Positions 11,517 to 38,283 of a DNA stretch of 64,000 bases are shown in pieces; within the stretch, counting starts at the first letter, position 1, and each line of letters begins with the position of its first letter. Both the position numbers and the translations under genes were made by a program. The notes beneath the pieces are model-generated. The model was not told the origin of the DNA, did not search any database, and saw only the letters and a program-made list of their open reading frames with translations. The stretch is from Terrimicrobium sacchariphilum (GTDB taxonomy: Bacteria; Verrucomicrobiota; Verrucomicrobiia; Chthoniobacterales; Terrimicrobiaceae): positions 3,286,001-3,350,000 of the forward strand of contig NZ_BDCO01000002.1 of NCBI RefSeq assembly GCF_001613545.1, in the 5' to 3' direction.

Positions 11517-13037
11517 ATGAACGGCAAGGCTCTTATCCAGGCTCTGAACGGTGTGTACGAGTGGGTCGACAAGCGACTCCACGTCACGGACCTCTTCAAT
11601 CACACCGCCGGCCACCCGATCCCGAAAAGCTCCGCGAGCTGGTTCTACGTCTTCGGCAGCGCCACGTTGCTCTGCTTCATGATCCAGCTCCTGACGGGCT
11701 GCCTGCTGGCGCTCGTCTACGTGCCCTCGGCCGCCGAGGCCTACACCACGCTGGAGTATCTGACTTTCCGGCAGGAACTTGGCTGGTTCCTCCGCGCCAC
11801 GCACTACTGGGGGTCCAATTTCATGGTGGGCATCATGCTCATCCACGTCACTCAGGTCTTCCTCTTCGGTGCCTACAAGTACCCGCGTGAGATCACCTGG
11901 ATGTCCGGCGTGGTCCTCATGCTCCTCACACTCGGCCTCGCCTTCACTGGCCAGGTGATGCGTTTTGACGAGGACGCCTACTGGGGTCTCGGCATCGGCG
12001 CCGCCATCGCCGGTCGTTCGCCGATGATTGGCCAGCAGGTGGTGAACTTCATGCTCGGCGGTCCCATCATCGCCAGCGAGACGCTATCGCGCTTCTTCAC
12101 CCTGCACGTCTTCGTCCTCCCGGGTTCCGTCCTCGCCCTTGTGGCCCTGCACCTCCGCATGGTGCTGACCAAAGGCATTAACGAATACCCGAAGCCCGGC
12201 CAGATCGTTCGCAAGGAGACCTACGACAAGGAATACGCCACGATCATCAAGAAGGAGGGCATCCCGTTCTTCCCGCACGGTATCTGGAAGGATCTCGTCG
12301 CGGCATCCATCGTTATCGGCGGCATCCTCTTCTGCGTCCTCATGTTCGGTCCCAAGGGGCCGCTCGGTGAGCCAAATCCGACGCAGATCGACACGGTGCC
12401 CCGGCCGGACTTCTTCTTCCTCTGGATCTTCGCCATCGCGGCGCTCATGCCGGACTACATGGAGACATTCATGCTCCTCGTGGCTCCGCCGATCATTATC
12501 GGGTTGCTCTTCATCCTGCCGTTCATCAACAACACGGGTGAAAAGAGCTGGCGTCGTCGTCCGATCGCGGTCCTCTCCGTTATTCTTATCTACCTCTCGC
12601 TCGGCCTCCTCACCTACCTCGGCCAGACCTCTCCCTGGTCTCCCGATATGAAGGCATGGTCGGGTGCGGAAACGCCGCGCGAGTTCGTCGAAGGCCGTTC
12701 GCCGCTGGAGCTTCAGGGTCTGGCCGTGCTGCAGAACAAGCAGTGCCGCAATTGCCATGCCATCGACGGCATCGGCGGTCATCGCGGCCCCGATCTCGCC
12801 GACGTGGGCACCCGCCTCACGAAGGATCAGCTTGTGCGCCAGATTATTCAGGGTGGCGGCAACATGCCCGCCTACGGTAAGAATCTCTCCCCGTATGAGA
12901 CCGAAGCCCTTGTTGCCTACATGGTCTCCCTGCATCCCAAGGACGAACTGCCCGCGCGCGACTCGACCATCCCGGCCACTCCCGCGCCGCTGTCCGTCCA
13001 GGAAGGCGAACAGCACGAAGCCGTGGGTGCTCACTAG
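11517..13037 (+). CDS. Cytochrome b (b6 + subunit IV) fused to a C-terminal cytochrome c domain
   Basis: A 506-aa quinol-oxidising subunit. The four haem-b histidines are H96/H110 and H197/H212; the second pair has 14 intervening residues, as in b6f-type proteins. The subunit IV part follows in the same chain. The Qo-loop motif normally PEWY reads PDFF here (about residue 297, in VPRPDFFFLW). After the last membrane helix the chain continues into a haem c domain with CRNCH (C410, C413, H414) and GNMPAYG. So one polypeptide covers cytochrome b and a c1-like function, and no separate c1 gene is needed. Confidence 0.95.
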   Translation: MNGKALIQALNGVYEWVDKRLHVTDLFNHTAGHPIPKSSASWFYVFGSATLLCFMIQLLTGCLLALVYVPSAAEAYTTLEYLTFRQELGWFLRATHYWGSNFMVGIMLIHVTQVFLFGAYKYPREITWMSGVVLMLLTLGLAFTGQVMRFDEDAYWGLGIGAAIAGRSPMIGQQVVNFMLGGPIIASETLSRFFTLHVFVLPGSVLALVALHLRMVLTKGINEYPKPGQIVRKETYDKEYATIIKKEGIPFFPHGIWKDLVAASIVIGGILFCVLMFGPKGPLGEPNPTQIDTVPRPDFFFLWIFAIAALMPDYMETFMLLVAPPIIIGLLFILPFINNTGEKSWRRRPIAVLSVILIYLSLGLLTYLGQTSPWSPDMKAWSGAETPREFVEGRSPLELQGLAVLQNKQCRNCHAIDGIGGHRGPDLADVGTRLTKDQLVRQIIQGGGNMPAYGKNLSPYETEALVAYMVSLHPKDELPARDSTIPATPAPLSVQEGEQHEAVGAH

Positions 13038-30068: not shown

Positions 30069-32258
30069 TTACGACTTCACCCCTCGCAACAGGCGCAGGG
30101 CATTCGCGGTGACGATCAACGTCGCTCCGGTATCGGCCAGGATAGCAAACCAGAGGCTGGTCAGCCCAAAGATCGCGAGCAGGAGAAAGACCGCTTTGAT
30201 CGCGAGGGCAAAGCAGATGTTGAAGCGAATCATGCCGAGGGTGCGACGGCCCAGCAGGATGGCTTCCGGCACCATACCGAGATCATCCCGCATGAGAGCC
30301 ACATCGGCCGTCTCGATCGCGGCATCAGTACCCGCCGCCCCCATGGCGATTCCCACATTGGCCACGGCCAGCGCAGGAGCGTCATTCACCCCGTCGCCGA
30401 TCATTCCCACGCTGCCGTATTTTGCGGCAAGTTCCTTCACCTTTGCGATCTTGTCGTCGGGCAGCAGGTCGCCGTAGGCCTCGTCGATGCCCGCTTCCTG
30501 CGCGATGGCGCGGGCGGTTTTCGTATTGTCCCCGCTCAACATCACGACGTGACGCAATCCCGCCTTGTGCATACGGGCGATGGCGTGGCGCGCCTCGGGC
30601 CGGATGGTATCCGCTATCGCGATCACTCCCAGCACCTCGCCGGTGCAGTCGCCATGCGGACGATGACCGACCACCACCACGGACCGCGCCGCCGCCTCGA
30701 TCCCGGCCAGCCGTTGCTCGAGAGCCGGTGAGCAAACCCCGATCTCGTGGGCGAAGCGGTGATTCCCCACAAAGTAATCATGCCCGCCGAGCGATCCCTC
30801 GGCTCCGCGTCCCTGGACGCTTCGGTATTCCGAGCATTCCTCGACGGCAACGGACTCGCTCCGCGCCCGGGCCACAATGGCCCGGGCCAGAGGATGGGTG
30901 GAGTGCGCGTTGATCGAGGCGGCGATGCGCAGGATTTCGACCGCCGAAGCCTGACCGACCGACTGGATATCGACGACCCTCGGCTTGCCCTCGGTAATCG
31001 TCCCCGTCTTATCGAGAGCCAACGCCTTCAGGCCGCCGAGGGCCTCCAGGTACGCGCCGCCCTTGACCAGCACGCCACCACGGGCCAGCGCCGCGAGACC
31101 GGAAACGACACTTATGGGAGTGGCAATGACCAGCGCACAGGGACAGGCGATGACGAGCAGGACCAGCGCGCGATAAATCCAGTCCATCCACGGCTGGCCA
31201 AACGCCAGCGGCGGCACGAGGGCGAGAGCGATGGCAAAGACCATCACCGCCGGCGTGTAAATACGGGCAAAGTTGTCCACGAACCGCTGCGCCGGGGCTT
31301 TGGTCGCCTGCGCCTCCTCCACCATGTGAATGATGCGGGCCAGCGTCGTATCTCCCGCCACCTTGGTCGTTTCAATCTGGAGCGAACCGTCGCCATTGAT
31401 CGTTCCCGCAAACACCTCATCGCCCGGCGATTTTTCCACGGGCAGGGATTCGCCGGTGATGGGCGCTTGATTCACGGCAGAGCTGCCCCCGACCACACGC
31501 CCGTCGAGCGGGATGCGCTGCCCGGAGCGCACCAGCACGATCTCGCCGACTTTCACGGAATCCGCCGCCACCTCGATGAAGTCGCCCTCGCGTTTCACCA
31601 GCGCCGTTTCCGGAGCGAGTTCCATCAGAGCGAGGATCGCCCGTCTCGCGCGACCCACGCTCCACGACTCCAGCAGTTCCGAAAGCGAAAACAAAAACGC
31701 CACCGCCGCGCCCTCCGCATGCTCGCCGATGGAGACCGCGCCGATCACGGCCACGGTCATGAGTACGTTCATGTCGAGCGACCGGGATCGCACCGCCCGC
31801 AGCGCCTTGGGCAGGACGAGCGCACCGCCGCTCACGATCGCAACGAGAAACGCCGCATCCGGCCAGAGCGTTTCCCGCAATCCCACCCACTGAAGCGCAA
31901 TGCCCAGACCCGTTCCCAAACCCGACAAAGCCACCAGCCAGGTGGAAAGCGAAATGCCTCGCCGGTTCTCCGTCCCGCCACTCTCGACGGTCACTCCGCT
32001 GCGGTTGATCGCCTGCACGAGTTCGTTCTCCGCCACCTCTCCGTCGGTATGGATCGTGACGGAAGAGGCCATGAGATTGGCCGTCACGCCGACCACGCGC
32101 GGGACGGACTTCATCTCGCGTTCGATGGCGGCAATCTCATCAGGGCAATCCATGCCACGCACCCGAAACGTCCGTGCCGTTGCACCCTCCGGGATTTCCA
32201 CGGGTGAAGGCGCGGGCTGTTCCTTGCGGCAGCAATCATGATGGCAACAATCGGACAT
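30069..32258 (-). CDS. Zn/Cd/Pb-exporting P1B-2-type ATPase
   Basis: 729 aa from [10 protein letters not shown] (start 32258; an upstream ATG at 32273 would lie within the promoter). A Cys/His-rich N-terminus and one HMA domain with GMDCPDE precede the transporter core: CPCAL in the sixth helix, [11 protein letters not shown] for phosphorylation, the HP motif [18 protein letters not shown], and [16 protein letters not shown] in the last helix, whose Asp defines the P1B-2 (ZntA/CadA) group. It pumps divalent soft metals outward. It is divergent from the MerR-type regulator with a shared operator. The GRRTLGMIR-type end is complete. Confidence 0.93.
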
Positions 32259-32264
32259 GATCCG

Positions 32265-32295
32265 AGTAAACACCTTGAAGTCACTTCAAGGTCAA
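32265..32295 (-). promoter_or_regulatory. MerR-type promoter/operator for the metal ATPase
   Basis: The perfect palindrome ACCTTGAAG-TCA-CTTCAAGGT (32272-32292) sits in a 19-bp spacer between a minus-strand -35 TTGACC (32290-32295) and -10 TTTACT (32265-32270). The 19-bp spacing is the hallmark of MerR-activated promoters. The predicted transcription start coincides with the ATPase ATG at 32258, implying a leaderless mRNA. Confidence 0.85.
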
Positions 32296-32309
32296 ACGAC
32301 ATTGTTCCC

Positions 32310-32729
32310 ATGACGATAGGCGACCTCGCCAAAGCGGCGGACTGCACGACCGAAACTGTGCGCTACTACGAAAAGCAGGGCCTGCTCCCCAAACCCGAAC
32401 GCAGCGGCAACAACTACCGCACCTACGGCGCAGGCCATCTCGAGCGGCTCCGCTTCGTGCGAAACTGCCGCGCCCTCGATCTCTCTCAGGCCGAGATCGC
32501 GGAACTACTCGGCCTCATGCAGCGCCCCTCCGCCGACTGCGATTCCGTCAATACCGTCCTCGACGCGCATATCGCCGACGTCGAGGCGCGCCTTCGCGAG
32601 CTCCGGTCACTGCGGAACCAACTCCTCACCCTGCGCAAGGAATGCCAGAGCAAATCGACCGTGGGCCAATGCCGCATCCTGCAGGGCATCTCCCATCTCG
32701 GGGAAAACGCAATGCACCTTGCCCACTGA
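32310..32729 (+). CDS. cadR: MerR-family metal regulator, CadR/PbrR type
   Basis: 139 aa from ATG 32310. The N-terminal winged helix (MTIGDLAKAADCTTETVRYY) and YYEKQGLLP are typical MerR; a long dimerisation helix follows. Cys77, Cys112 and Cys121 match the metal-binding triad pattern of CadR (77, 112, 119). It is divergent from the P1B-2 ATPase and sits by the operator, so it most likely activates the exporter on Cd, Pb or Zn and autoregulates. Confidence 0.9.
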   Translation: MTIGDLAKAADCTTETVRYYEKQGLLPKPERSGNNYRTYGAGHLERLRFVRNCRALDLSQAEIAELLGLMQRPSADCDSVNTVLDAHIADVEARLRELRSLRNQLLTLRKECQSKSTVGQCRILQGISHLGENAMHLAH

Positions 32730-32788: not shown

Positions 32789-34642
32789 ATGAATACCCCC
32801 ACCCTCCGGCTGCTCGCCTGCAGCTTCGTCCTTTCCGTCATCGCGACCTCCACCGGCTCCGCTCAGACCGCCTCGCAGGCCGTTCTCACCGAACTGGACC
32901 AACTCGTGGCTGACAACCAAGACAAGGGCGGCGGCATCGTTCGCATCGCCGGCCGCGACGGCGTCCTCTGCCAGGGCGCGGCGGGGAAGTTCGCCGGACC
33001 GGATTCCCCCGACATGACGCCGGACACGCCGTTTGAGATCGCCAGCATCACCAAGGCCGTCACCGCCGCAACGATCCTCGTCCTCGCCGAGGAGGGCAAG
33101 CTTACGCTCGACACTCCGATCGGCAAGGTGCTCCCTGCGAAAACCGTGCAGGGTTTTGATAGCTCCCTCACCATTCGCCAACTCCTCTCCCACACTAGCG
33201 GCCTCCTTCACTATTGGACAGATGGCGCACGAGACCGCGAGGGCAACAACGCCTTTCTCCGCTCCTTCCTCGCCGACCCGGGGCACAACTGGACGCCGGA
33301 TGAAATCCTCTCCTACGCCCGCGAGATTCCCTCTCGCCGCCCTGGCCGTTTTCACTATTCGGATACAAACTTCGTCCTCCTTGGCCTCATCATCGAGCAT
33401 GTCACCGGCCAGCCGCTGCATGCGGTCTACCGCCAGAAAATCTTCCGCCCGCTTGGCATGGACTCGACGTGGCTCACCTATCACGAACCCCGTCGAGGCG
33501 CACCACAGTCGCATCGCTATGAAGGCAGCGAAGACCTCACCGACGTGCCCCGCCAGAGCGCCGACTGGGCAGGCGGCGGCCTCGTGAGCACTGCGCGCGA
33601 TCTCGAGCGCTTCCTGCGCGGGCTGGCCGACGGGAAACTCTTCCACGATCCCGCCACGCTCCAGGCCATGCTCACCTTTGTCCCTACCGGCGAGCAGGAC
33701 ATCTCGTATGGACTCGGCCTTTACCGCGTGAAGCTCGACGGCGGGCTCGGCGAGGTCTGGGGCCACGACGGACACGGCAACTCCTTTGCCTACTACTGGC
33801 CGCAGCGCGGCGTCACCTTCACCGGCACGCTCAACCAGGTGGACAACGACTGGTGGCCGCTCGTCGAGGCCTGGGTCTCCGGCGGCAAAAGCCTCTCCGA
33901 CTTTGAGGAGGATCGCCAGACCTTCAATGCCAGCCTGTCGACGGGATGGGATAGTCTCTACATGGACAAGGGCGCCAACGGCCTGAATGACAACAACCGC
34001 TACGGTGCTGGCATCTACTGGACCGCCCTCTCCCTCACCTGGAACATCTCGGAATCCAACTTCCTCACTGCCGGAGTCTGGCAGGCCTTTGCCACCAGCG
34101 GCCCGTCGTATCGCGAAACCGATACCGACATCACTTTCACCCAACTCGTCGGCGACGGTTTCGTCAGCCTCGCGTATGACTTCAACTACGGCTACAGCGA
34201 CGGCAATTTTTACTCGAACGAGCTGGTCGCCTCTGCCGGGTGGGACTTCACCCTCGGTCCGCTCACCCTCACGCCCTCGGCCACCTACTGGTTCGCCCTC
34301 GGGCCGGATTCCGACAGCGGCAGCGGGTTCGTCGAGGCTTGCTCGAGCTTCCTCAACCTCCGCCTCGACGGCAACCTGCCGCTCTATCGCGACATCCTCG
34401 CCCTCGATTTCTGGGGCGCCTTCGGCGTGAACTTCCGCTACAATACCTCACCCGCCCCCGACGACGAGGTCACTCCCTTCACTGGACCAAACAACCTCGA
34501 GTGCGGCCTGTCGCTCCCGGTCCGCGTCAACCGATACATTACTTTCTCCGTCTACGGTGCCTACAGCCACGCGCTCAACGACATCAGTGGCACTGCCGCC
34601 AATACCTTCTGGGGCGGTGGCAGTGTACAGTTCTCTTATTAG
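32789..34642 (+). CDS. Serine hydrolase (S12/beta-lactamase family) fused to an outer-membrane beta-barrel
   Basis: A 617-aa protein with a signal peptide (FVLSVIATSTGSAQT). Residues about 30-370 form a penicillin-binding/DD-peptidase-like domain: S86-I-T-K89 (nucleophile and base), Y190-S-D192 in YSDTNFVLLG (DD-peptidase R61 has YSNTNF), and H326-D-G328 as third motif. From about residue 380 to the end the chain alternates hydrophobic and polar residues in strands rich in Gly, Tyr and Trp, and finishes with the aromatic-terminated SVQFSY, the usual signal of BAM-assembled barrels. So a catalytic domain is tethered to an outer-membrane pore. Substrate unknown. Signals of the two halves are clear; the fusion is unusual. 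Confidence 0.8.
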   Translation: MNTPTLRLLACSFVLSVIATSTGSAQTASQAVLTELDQLVADNQDKGGGIVRIAGRDGVLCQGAAGKFAGPDSPDMTPDTPFEIASITKAVTAATILVLAEEGKLTLDTPIGKVLPAKTVQGFDSSLTIRQLLSHTSGLLHYWTDGARDREGNNAFLRSFLADPGHNWTPDEILSYAREIPSRRPGRFHYSDTNFVLLGLIIEHVTGQPLHAVYRQKIFRPLGMDSTWLTYHEPRRGAPQSHRYEGSEDLTDVPRQSADWAGGGLVSTARDLERFLRGLADGKLFHDPATLQAMLTFVPTGEQDISYGLGLYRVKLDGGLGEVWGHDGHGNSFAYYWPQRGVTFTGTLNQVDNDWWPLVEAWVSGGKSLSDFEEDRQTFNASLSTGWDSLYMDKGANGLNDNNRYGAGIYWTALSLTWNISESNFLTAGVWQAFATSGPSYRETDTDITFTQLVGDGFVSLAYDFNYGYSDGNFYSNELVASAGWDFTLGPLTLTPSATYWFALGPDSDSGSGFVEACSSFLNLRLDGNLPLYRDILALDFWGAFGVNFRYNTSPAPDDEVTPFTGPNNLECGLSLPVRVNRYITFSVYGAYSHALNDISGTAANTFWGGGSVQFSY

Positions 34643-35098
34643 CGCAATATCACCGGACTGCCGGAAAGACACCGGCCGCCGCGTCAGCCATGTTATTAAA
34701 GGCTCTGCTGCCGATTTTGCAGGGCCTGCGTGCGAGCCTCACTCACATCGGAGCAACCGGAAAAGCCGGCACACTAGCAACGCCTACAGCAAAAGGCCGC
34801 CAAGCATCGCTCCGCGTGGGGAAAAGCTCTTCATGCAAAGCGAGTTACTAGAGCATGACCACTTAGCCGGGAAGCACGCAGAAGCAAATCGTGCGGCAAA
34901 GAAAAATCCTTGTTTGCAGCACACATCCGCTCCCGAAATCTGCCCCGCCAATACGTTGGCTGCGCGACCGCAGGAAGCGCTGCTATGTCAGAAGACGCCA
35001 CATGCAGAGGCTATATCCGGCAGAATGGACAGAAATCGACACGGGATGAAGCGGAGTTCAGCTTAAAGAAATTTGTGCCATTGCCCTATAAATGGCCA
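34643..35098. other. Intergenic region, no feature recognised
   Basis: Between the hydrolase-barrel gene and the beta-helix gene. The frame of the downstream gene is open into it (from 34910), but the encoded residues are not protein-like and a good signal peptide begins at 35099. No RNA gene or repeat was recognised. Confidence 0.5.
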
Positions 35099-37021
35099 AT
35101 GTCCCCTCCCATTGCGGTATCCCTCCTTATCTTGATCAGCAATCCATTCGCTGCGCTATCAGCATCCGAGCCGGACCGGATATTTCCCGCCGATGCGGTA
35201 GTCAATGTCACCCTGCCGCCTTATGGCGCAAAGCCCGACGACGACAGCGATGACACGGCAGCGATTCAGCGTGCCATTTCCGCGAATGTCGGAACAGGCC
35301 GCGTGCTGTACTTCCCGGCGGGCGTTTATAATGTGTGCGACTCCCTTGTTGCAAAGAACATCAGGGGAAACTGGGAGGCACATCTCACACTTCAAGGACA
35401 GCGGCGCGACAAAACCATCCTCAGGCTCGCATCGGGCGCGCCGGGATTTGGCGACGCAGCGCACCCAAAGGGGGTATTGGTAACCGGGTCCCACTGGGAA
35501 CCGGGCGATGCGTCCGACGGCGGCGGCAACAAGGCCTTTCGCAATAATGTCTTCGACCTCACCATCGACACTGGCAGCGGGAATGCCGGAGCGATCGGCA
35601 TCGACTATGCCGTGAGCAACCAGGGCGCGATCGAGCGGGTCACGATCACGGGCGGGGGCGTCGCCGGCATCGCGCTACGGCGAAAAATCCCGGGGCCGGG
35701 CCTGATCAGGGACGTGGCGGTGCGGGGATTCGACACAGGCATCGACCTCGGGGACATTCAGTATGGACTCACCCTGGAGCATGTCACGGTTGAGGGCCAG
35801 CGAGTTGCCGGGATACGGACGAGCCGCAACGTGCTGCACATGCGCGGCATCACCAGCCGCAATCGCGTGCCCGCCCTCGTCGTTTCGGATCGTCTGGGCA
35901 TGGCCACGCTCCTCGACTCCGACCTCTCTGGAGGGGATGCCGGGGAGTTTGCCATCGACTGCGCGGGCAGCCTGCTGGTTCGCCATGTGAAGATCGGCGG
36001 CTACCGCGCCAGGCCGATCCGGTGCCGCGATGGCGAGCGCGAGCCCGGCCCGATCATCAGCCCGCCCGCCATCGGAGAAAACGCCTTTGCCCCGCTCGAA
36101 ATCCGCGAAACTCCCGCCTACTGGAATGGCGACCTTTCCGACTGGTCCGCCGTCGGTGCGCGCCGCGAAGGAGAGCCCGACGACACCGCCGCCATCCAGC
36201 GCGCCATCGATGCCGGAAAAAGCGTGGTGTATTTCCCCAATGACCGCACCTACTTCCTCTCCGATACCATCATCGTACGCGGAGCCGTCAGGCAGGTGCT
36301 GGGCATGGGCGCCGAGATCAGCCTGGGCGCGGCGGAGCCGCCCTTCCGCGACCCACAAAACCCGCGCCCACTCCTCCGCATCGACTCGCCGGCAGGTGCG
36401 GCAGTGTTTCTTGAGAATCTGTTCTTCAACGCCCAGTACCCCGGCGAACTTCTTATCCTCAACAACTCCCCCGCCATGCTCGTGATCTCGCACAGCTCCG
36501 GGTGGGTCGGAGCCAGCGGCATCGCCCGCACCTACCGCAACACGCCCAAGGCAACCGGCCCGCTCTTCATCGAGGACGTCTTCCTCCCTGGCTGGGAGTT
36601 CACCGGCCAGCACGTCTGGGCGCGTCAATTCAATCCGGAGAATTGGGCCAGCGACGGCTCGGAGCCCCAGGTGACAAATACCGACGGCGTGCTCTGGATT
36701 CTCGGCTTCAAAACCGAAGGCGCAGCACCATTCCTCGCCACCCGCTCCGGAGGCCGCACGGAACTCCTCGGCGGCTACAACTATATCTCCGCCACTAAGT
36801 CCGCCACCGTCCCCGCCGACTCCATCCCCTACCTCGCCGACAACGCCACGATGGCCCTCACCTTCCTCGCCGAGAACTTCCGCGACAGCGACTACCGCGC
36901 CTATATCCGCCAGACCCTCGACGGAAAAACCACGGTATTTGCAAGAACCGAGCTCCCCCCGCGCAGTGGCCACCCCGGCGACCGCTCCATCGCCGTCACC
37001 CTCTTTCAGGGTGGGAAGTGA
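35099..37021 (+). CDS. Secreted parallel beta-helix protein with two pectate-lyase-3-like domains
   Basis: 640 aa from ATG 35099 with a signal peptide (SPPIAVSLLILISNPFAALS). Two copies of the Pectate_lyase_3 entry pattern are visible: YGAKPDDDSDDTAAIQRAI (about residue 39) and EGEPDDTAAIQRAIDAGKS (about 355), each starting a repetitive beta-helix. Such proteins are glycoside hydrolases, lyases or epimerases on polysaccharides, or structural. Catalytic residues could not be placed, so the substrate is unknown. It is convergent with a PEP-CTERM gene. Confidence 0.82.
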   Translation: MSPPIAVSLLILISNPFAALSASEPDRIFPADAVVNVTLPPYGAKPDDDSDDTAAIQRAISANVGTGRVLYFPAGVYNVCDSLVAKNIRGNWEAHLTLQGQRRDKTILRLASGAPGFGDAAHPKGVLVTGSHWEPGDASDGGGNKAFRNNVFDLTIDTGSGNAGAIGIDYAVSNQGAIERVTITGGGVAGIALRRKIPGPGLIRDVAVRGFDTGIDLGDIQYGLTLEHVTVEGQRVAGIRTSRNVLHMRGITSRNRVPALVVSDRLGMATLLDSDLSGGDAGEFAIDCAGSLLVRHVKIGGYRARPIRCRDGEREPGPIISPPAIGENAFAPLEIRETPAYWNGDLSDWSAVGARREGEPDDTAAIQRAIDAGKSVVYFPNDRTYFLSDTIIVRGAVRQVLGMGAEISLGAAEPPFRDPQNPRPLLRIDSPAGAAVFLENLFFNAQYPGELLILNNSPAMLVISHSSGWVGASGIARTYRNTPKATGPLFIEDVFLPGWEFTGQHVWARQFNPENWASDGSEPQVTNTDGVLWILGFKTEGAAPFLATRSGGRTELLGGYNYISATKSATVPADSIPYLADNATMALTFLAENFRDSDYRAYIRQTLDGKTTVFARTELPPRSGHPGDRSIAVTLFQGGK

Positions 37022-37176: not shown

Positions 37177-38283
37177 TCAGGCCGTGGCTCGGCGTCGCAG
37201 GCCCAAGACCACGGCGGTCAGGCCAAGCGCGACGAGCGCGTAGGTCGACGGCTCCGGCACAGTAGCCGTGTACGTGTTCACGGCGGACGAACCCGACGTG
37301 GCGTAAACACCGATACCGACATTCTCATAGACCGTATTGCCGGTCGTGAGGTCGGAGCCGTTGACATCAAGGCCCGTCCAGACGGCATCAGGGTTGAACA
37401 CCCCGTCGGTGACGGAGATAAAGGCCAGGGCGGCTCCGATCGCCGAACCATCCTCGTTGTTCGTCACCGTGGCGATGACGTTATATCCGCCGTCCACCGC
37501 AGTGATACCCTCAAAGTGCGAGATAGCGCCACCCTGATCATTAAAGGTGTAAAACGTCTGGCCAGTGACGGTATTCGAAGTCAGGTTGTAATTGGCAATG
37601 AACGCCTGGTTCAAATCCGCCGCGCCGGGATTGCGAGCACCTCCGACGATGACATAGTTGTCACCCCCGGTATGCCACACCCCATAAAGCGAGGACTCGT
37701 TTCCAAGACTCAGCGACTTAAAGGTGTTGGATGTCAGGTCAAAAATAAACGAATTGCCGGTTTGAGCCGTCCCTTTATCGTACGCTCCCACCACGACGCT
37801 CCCAGCCGTGCTGTGCGGGATGGTATTGACTGCGTCCGGAACATTGATTGCCGTTACGCCATACGTGCCAGACTGAAGGGCGCCCTGGTACATGAAGCCA
37901 AAGGTGCCATCCACCTCGTCAAGTTGATAGGTGCCGACGGCGCGAATCTGACCCTCCGGGATGAGGGAATTAAACGCATGCGTATCCGGCCCGTAATAGA
38001 TCGAGCCGATCAGCGTACCCGAGACCTGCGGCAGGATCGTGTAATAGGTGCCGATATTGGAGTAGAGATTGCCACTCCAGAGCAGCCCCTGGGTGACTCC
38101 GGAGACCTGCTGGCTTCCCGTCAGGATGACATTGCCGGTGTTGGTGGTATCCGTACCCCGCACACCCGTGGCGGAGTCGTTGACTTCCAGAATGGTGTTG
38201 TAAGTCGGCTCCGCGTGGGACAGGGAGGCTGTCATTACGAGTGCCGAGGCGACAACGCTAGCTGTGTGAAGTATGCGGCGCAT
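37177..38283 (-). CDS. PEP-CTERM-sorted secreted protein
   Basis: A 368-aa protein with an N-terminal signal (TASVVASALVMTASLSHA) and the sorting tail VPEPSTYALVALGLTAVVLG followed by RRR. The mature part has several short repeats of YNTILEVND / GTYQLDEVDGTFGFMYQGAL type, without catalytic motifs. PEP-CTERM proteins are recognised by exosortase and often associate with exopolysaccharide. No exosortase gene is in this window. Confidence 0.9.
   Translation of the reverse strand: MRRILHTASVVASALVMTASLSHAEPTYNTILEVNDSATGVRGTDTTNTGNVILTGSQQVSGVTQGLLWSGNLYSNIGTYYTILPQVSGTLIGSIYYGPDTHAFNSLIPEGQIRAVGTYQLDEVDGTFGFMYQGALQSGTYGVTAINVPDAVNTIPHSTAGSVVVGAYDKGTAQTGNSFIFDLTSNTFKSLSLGNESSLYGVWHTGGDNYVIVGGARNPGAADLNQAFIANYNLTSNTVTGQTFYTFNDQGGAISHFEGITAVDGGYNVIATVTNNEDGSAIGAALAFISVTDGVFNPDAVWTGLDVNGSDLTTGNTVYENVGIGVYATSGSSAVNTYTATVPEPSTYALVALGLTAVVLGLRRRATA

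Follow-up and report, generated by a model that had tools for sequence, protein, structure and literature searches.

Known serine hydrolases of the S12 family include alkaline D-peptidase (4y7p), the S12 peptidase 3wwx and R61, which is a DD-peptidase; the solved chains of these three have 347–388 residues and carry no barrel. Alkaline D-peptidase combines D-endopeptidase with beta-lactamase activity (PMC4570186, in the part of that paper drawn on here). Among enzymes fused to outer-membrane barrels, the main known examples are autotransporters, which present the enzyme outside the cell (the relevant part of PMC6555100, and general knowledge). EstA of Pseudomonas aeruginosa (type Va) places a GDSL esterase before a C-terminal 12-stranded barrel, and PlpD/FplA (type Vd) likewise unite a hydrolase, here a patatin lipase, and an outer-membrane barrel in one chain, with a POTRA domain between the two (same part of PMC6555100). 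Among the papers listed in searches of the open-licence PMC literature for such a fusion, none describes, by title and opening of the abstract, a protein that joins an S12 domain to a barrel.

The locus considered here lies in a window of 64,000 nucleotides, by which the whole analysed stretch of Terrimicrobium sacchariphilum DNA is meant. A complete open reading frame with an ATG start (32789..34642, + strand; orthologous fusions L055–L058) encodes a protein of 617 residues, along which a signal peptide, an S12 serine hydrolase, a short linker and a predicted 12-stranded outer-membrane barrel follow one another. By computation, the domain make-up of this protein is that of an S12 enzyme plus a barrel. 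The sequence-only reading of the locus, which placed an S12 domain and an outer-membrane beta-barrel in one open reading frame, is thereby borne out, both by a Pfam match to PF00144 and by a confident barrel model. This single protein of a soil bacterium combines a penicillin-binding-type enzyme with a predicted outer-membrane barrel, and most likely keeps the enzyme at the membrane's inner face. Like EstA, it has an N-terminal hydrolase and a C-terminal 12-stranded barrel; unlike EstA, it uses another hydrolase family, has no autotransporter sequence match and has a short linker, and its enzyme is likely periplasmic. It adds a variant to barrel-tethered enzymes such as EstA. Cell-wall and D-peptide chemistry at the outer membrane is otherwise done with lipoproteins; a barrel that keeps a penicillin-binding-type enzyme on the inside, if true, would be a different way of retaining this chemistry there.

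The S12 domain and its active-site motifs

A putative Sec signal peptide, read by eye, covers approximately residues 1–25 (32789..32863, +). A lipoprotein signal is unlikely, because Cys11 precedes most of the hydrophobic stretch. The S12 domain follows at residues 37–352 (32897..33844, +), where hmmscan matches PF00144 with E 9.5e-58 and 196.4 bits against a cut-off of 27, covering profile positions 2–312 of 329. The three features of the S12 family, SxxK, HxG and a catalytic Tyr, are all present, as S86–K89, H326–G328 and Y190. Motif alignment places them in SITK (Ser86 and Lys89; 33044..33055, +), YSD (Tyr190, and Asp192 where YxN has Asn; 33356..33364, +) and HDG (His326; 33764..33772, +). 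The SxxK, YSD and HDG motifs reported from the sequence alone are thus real, at residues 86 (SITK), 190 (YSDTN) and 326 (HDGHG).

By sequence, the solved chains that come closest are 4y7p, an alkaline D-peptidase (6e-37), and 3wwx (7.6e-37), followed by 9s7k (1.9e-32) and R61 DD-peptidase (6e-28). In pairwise alignments, the SxxK, Tyr and His of the window protein fall onto those of the solved chains; the catalytic domain is homologous to that of 4y7p, 3wwx and R61, with a barrel after it that those chains lack. The third motif reads HDG in the window protein as against HGG or HTG in the aligned solved chains, and YxN has become YSD.

This last exchange, which the sequence-only reading had pointed out as Asn to Asp, is real and typical of the fusions. 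All five of them have Asp at the YxN position (YSD in three, YAD in two), as against one of 28 other S12 open reading frames; among these 28, which came from searches with this S12 domain and PF00144 in this phylum and are no sample of S12 proteins overall, 15 have Y-x-N, nine have another residue and three could not be aligned at the motifs. The YxN of AmpH-type class C penicillin-binding proteins (PBPs) is thus replaced by YSD in the window protein. This is no bar to membership of that class, since most members, and not all, carry YxN according to the part of PMC4570186 used here. The Asp suggests a changed specificity, and the S12 activity is perhaps altered or lost because Asp replaces the Asn of YxN.

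Models at the level of function do not narrow the activity down. Scores against NCBIfam lie far under the cut-offs for AmpH (69.7 vs 266 bits) and class C beta-lactamase (43.8 vs 415 bits), and even the top function-level score, for the methyl acetate hydrolase AcmB, reaches 72.7 bits against a cut-off of 550; the matches listed (25 of 38) all lie within the S12 part. Hydrolysis of D-peptides or cell-wall peptides is the best guess for the activity. By analogy with the fold family, activity on peptidoglycan or beta-lactams might also be guessed at.

The predicted barrel and its relatives

The C-terminal region is predicted to have an outer-membrane barrel fold. For residues 366–617, AlphaFold2, run with an alignment of 37 rows (the window sequence and 36 rows from named contigs), gives 12 strands with a mean pLDDT of 90.6 and a pTM of 0.86. 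The first nine residues of this construct (from 366) have a pLDDT below 50, and strand 1 begins at residue 379; the barrel thus spans residues 379–617 (33923..34639, +), ending in Tyr. The 23 aligned relatives share this kind of ending, with Phe or Tyr as the last residue. Hydropathy alternates in the predicted strands more than by chance (of 2000 shuffles made within the strands, 6 give as high a value), and the alternation is weak in three of the 12 strands taken singly (differences 0.2, 0.5 and 0.9). Antiparallel strands, amphipathicity and an aromatic C-terminus, as expected of an outer-membrane beta-barrel, are all found in the prediction, with closure of the barrel deduced from the fold matches. 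The region with barrel-like alternation and an aromatic end that had been seen from the sequence alone therefore holds up in the shuffles, the terminal Tyr and the 12-strand model; the prediction is a barrel with high confidence, and not another fold.

Fold comparisons place the barrel among both channels and autotransporters. The top Foldseek match in the PDB is full-length EstA (3kvn, E 2.3e-9), one of 387 chains at E ≤ 0.001. A second comparison is led by the COG4313 channel 4rl8 (Z 17.4; 212 residues, 2.9 Å), and the further matches include the autotransporters AaaA (Z 17.4), EspP (17.4) and NalP (17.1) and the small channels KdgM porin (17.3), Tsx (16.0) and NanC (15.9). Since the scores of channels and autotransporters tie, they demonstrate a common 12-stranded fold and not a function.

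Pfam has no match at E ≤ 5 to the barrel part of seven barrel proteins, the window's included; PHROGs has none to the barrel part at E ≤ 0.1, and a search of PDB sequences with the barrel alignment profile A1 gave none at E ≤ 5. Six stand-alone barrels were compared with NCBIfam, with stray matches to unrelated models in two of them (E 0.033 and 4.2). The search for a barrel family that the sequence-only reading had proposed did lead to a result at profile level: barrel profile A2 matches a profile of ten Gcw_chp (PF09694) proteins, drawn as PF09694-positive from 59 genomes, with 99.0% probability over 213 columns and, as a single pair comparison, with E 2.5e-18. The barrel profile also recovers four of the ten PF09694-positive loci (with E-values for a small set). 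By this profile likeness, the barrel is a far relative of Gcw_chp, though it falls below the Pfam model and has an enzyme in front; the PF09694 model itself finds no match in the window's own genome. Gcw_chp goes by the NCBI name 'TorF family putative porin'. In the open-licence PMC literature, a paper listed under that NCBI name deals with gold nanoparticles, and no paper under the name Gcw_chp was found.

Relatives of the barrel, counting the own genome each time, occur in 34 of 58 genomes by single-sequence search, in 64 of 213 genomes of the order with profile A1, and in 59 of 387 genomes of the phylum with profile A2, where many matches are weak and partial. The fusion offers a handle on a barrel family that has no Pfam model and is widespread in this Verrucomicrobiota order, and the fused enzyme hints at what might lie close to the barrel or be carried by it. 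Most members have no such partner: of 37 named barrel loci, 33 are stand-alone and four are fusions. The own genome holds a stand-alone paralogue (G000:C2:512238; 309 aa in the longest reading) that is 47% identical to the barrel part. In G018, an open frame of 703 aa also looks, by eye, like a stand-alone barrel that has open sequence ahead of it. A second subfamily of stand-alone barrels (L035:1285-2214 and L147:1434-3281) has stretches rich in His, among them HAHEHEHEE and HGDEHGEKHEDHGHAH, that are possible metal-binding sites.

Placement of the enzyme and rival readings

The protein is probably a serine hydrolase of family S12, of the same type as R61 and alkaline D-peptidase, that is anchored by its barrel in the outer membrane and has its catalytic domain in the periplasm. 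In this mechanism, Sec would export the 617-residue protein and the C-terminal 12-stranded barrel would insert into the outer membrane, so placing the S12 domain in the periplasm just beneath the barrel and near the peptidoglycan. Together with Lys89, Tyr190 and His326, Ser86 would then react with a D-amino-acid peptide, or with a comparable ester or amide, to give an acyl-enzyme; the peptide could be a cell-wall stem peptide or an imported D-peptide. Export, insertion, the periplasmic side, activity and the class of substrate are all what we infer for this chain.

That the enzyme lies in the periplasm under the barrel, and not on the surface, is the part of this reading that appears very likely, because the linker is short and both barrel ends are on one side. 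In a barrel with 12 strands, both ends point to the same, periplasmic, side. The predicted strands are joined by gaps of 4, 2, 6, 3 and 4 residues on the side of the ends and of 20, 6, 3, 14, 5 and 9 residues opposite them, where the long loops lie. By eye, the last S12 helix ends near residue 365; if the chain ends of 3wwx and R61 are carried over through the alignments, the S12 fold would end at about 371–377. With strand 1 at residue 379, the linker has at most about 13 residues (366–378; 33884..33922, +), its start set by eye and its extent by the low-pLDDT stretch before strand 1. In type Va autotransporters, a linker helix runs through the pore, and a helix spanning the pore would probably fit poorly into so short a linker. 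Of the two placements that the sequence-only reading had offered, anchoring from the inside is therefore favoured over display by linker length and barrel topology. The full-length AlphaFold2 prediction from the single sequence has a pLDDT of 34.5, with the arrangement of S12 domain and barrel outside the usable model.

Several other readings have to be set against this placement. The barrel might carry the S12 domain out of the cell as an autotransporter does, as in EstA of Pseudomonas, whose full-length structure is the best Foldseek match even though its enzyme sits outside, which counts against an inside placement. AaaA, EspP and NalP, all autotransporters with 12-stranded barrels, also score about level with channels, and type Va proteins have the same arrangement, with the enzyme at the N-terminus and a 12-stranded barrel at the C-terminus (PMC6555100, in the part used). 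Such display is nevertheless unlikely. Searched as a whole at E ≤ 1, the protein has three Pfam matches, all of the penicillin-binding type and none to an autotransporter family; the barrel part, as noted, is without a Pfam match at E ≤ 5, and its kin are mostly stand-alone. Besides the short linker, the model has no helix of more than three residues before strand 1, in a construct whose first nine residues are of low confidence. A refinement that is compatible with the periplasmic placement makes the barrel a channel, with the S12 domain at its inner mouth hydrolysing a small substrate as it enters (a D-peptide, an ester or a beta-lactam). Small substrate channels (4rl8, KdgM, Tsx and NanC) are among the best fold matches, and several positions that alternation predicts to face inward are polar and conserved, for example D388, E443, D445, N548, N552 and N569; the equally good match to autotransporter barrels speaks against it, and the refinement is doubtful, if somewhat more plausible than display. 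Equally tentative is the wider proposal that the single chain is an uptake device, in which a small 12-stranded outer-membrane channel would bear its own S12 hydrolase at the periplasmic mouth and process D-peptides or destroy beta-lactams on their way in; such a porin with an enzyme of its own would have come from a single fusion of a duplicated Gcw_chp-related barrel.

The remaining two readings concern the enzyme and the gene itself. The S12 domain could be catalytically dead, as YSD might indicate, and serve as a peptidoglycan-binding module, in line with the Asp that all five fusions have for the motif Asn. This is improbable, slightly more so than display, since the Ser, Lys, Tyr and His tetrad of AmpH-type class C PBPs (PMC4570186, in the part used) is wholly retained and the S12 part is better conserved between genera than the barrel. 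An artefact of assembly or gene calling that joined two genes could draw on the frequency of stand-alone barrel genes; its likelihood is negligible, as five separate genomes from three genera all have the junction open and free of stop codons.

Spread of the fusion and its surroundings

Among the 64 barrel-positive genomes of the order, five carry the fusion: the window's own genome (G000) with G001 and G002 of the same genus, and G006 and G011 of two other genera of the same family. Each has an S12 match of 65% identity or more, and each also keeps a stand-alone barrel. The family is represented by 26 genomes; the 21 without the fusion have no S12 match or, at best, a weak one (three genomes, at most 34% identity), and no unfused member of this S12 lineage was found. 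The separate genes in relatives that had been named earlier as a check are thus found for the barrel, which occurs alone, and not for this S12 lineage, which was found only fused, in three genera. Two barrel patterns, run against the collection of named genomes, gave fusions in Spartobacteria bacterium LR76, MAG SCN18_30_10_14_R3_B_61_17 and MAG AH-24oct19-86, and a fourth in MAG PowLak16_MAG3, where the open reading frame is cut by the contig end. The five fused barrels group together as a single clade, supported at 100/100, in a tree built from 38 barrel sequences. It seems that the fusion arose a single time and was then retained by a few related bacteria.

In the class, 17 of 384 genomes match the S12 part at E ≤ 1e-25, with at most five candidates scored per genome, so that a copy may be missed; these are the fusions of G000, G001, G002 and G006 and 13 others that are 33–43% identical, and G011 is not among the matches listed. 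Of 14 weaker S12 places, the two longest (L123 and L124) have C-termini that are, by eye, repeat-like and not this barrel; the remaining 12 are open frames of 384–485 aa. Apart from the window's own, every barrel match in the phylum sample sits in an open frame of 464 aa or less. Plasmid searches matched 630 records, none of which covers 80% of the query at a single location, and the matches listed (10 of 630) cover the S12 part only.

Within the genus, both the S12 part (dN/dS 0.065–0.068) and the barrel (0.037–0.043) are under purifying selection, as calculated by an own Nei–Gojobori script; values between genera (0.09–0.36) are unreliable, with synonymous sites near or at saturation. Identities to the two fusions outside the genus are 68% and 64% for the S12 part and 59% and 49% for the barrel. 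Taken with the dN/dS values within the genus, they indicate that both parts are maintained.

The fusion gene seems to act alone. Immediately upstream of it (30069-32729) lie a metal P-type ATPase, which has an HMA domain and an N-terminus rich in Cys and His, and a MerR regulator divergent from it. This pair also stands beside the fusion in G001 and is absent there in G002, and was thus gained or lost within the genus; an operon of the pair with the fusion gene is ruled out by G002, which is without the pair at that place. In G002, the fusion gene adjoins homologues of the window genes at 26–29.5 kb, an upstream block that is common to the genus. For none of the window's open reading frames from 26 to 42 kb was a counterpart found beside the fusion in G006 (16 kb covered) or in G011, where the fusion sits at the margin of a contig of 7.8 kb. 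No neighbour gene common to the three genera was therefore found, and the surroundings give no pointer to a pathway. A promoter scan found no promoter-like site, and a terminator scan found two terminator-like sites, which is not above the level in shuffled sequences.

Downstream lies a pectate-lyase-like protein (34910-37021; PF12708, two matched stretches), which has no match beside the fusion in G001 or G002. It is followed by an open reading frame on the opposite strand (37177-38283, −) with, by eye, a PEP-CTERM-like signal at its end (VPEPSTYALVALGLTAVVLGLRRR). Elsewhere in the window, a cytochrome b protein (11517-13034) ends in a cytochrome c domain of the CBB3 type; the stretch around it also contains COX1, COX2 plus cytochrome c, CtaG and cytochrome bd subunit I.
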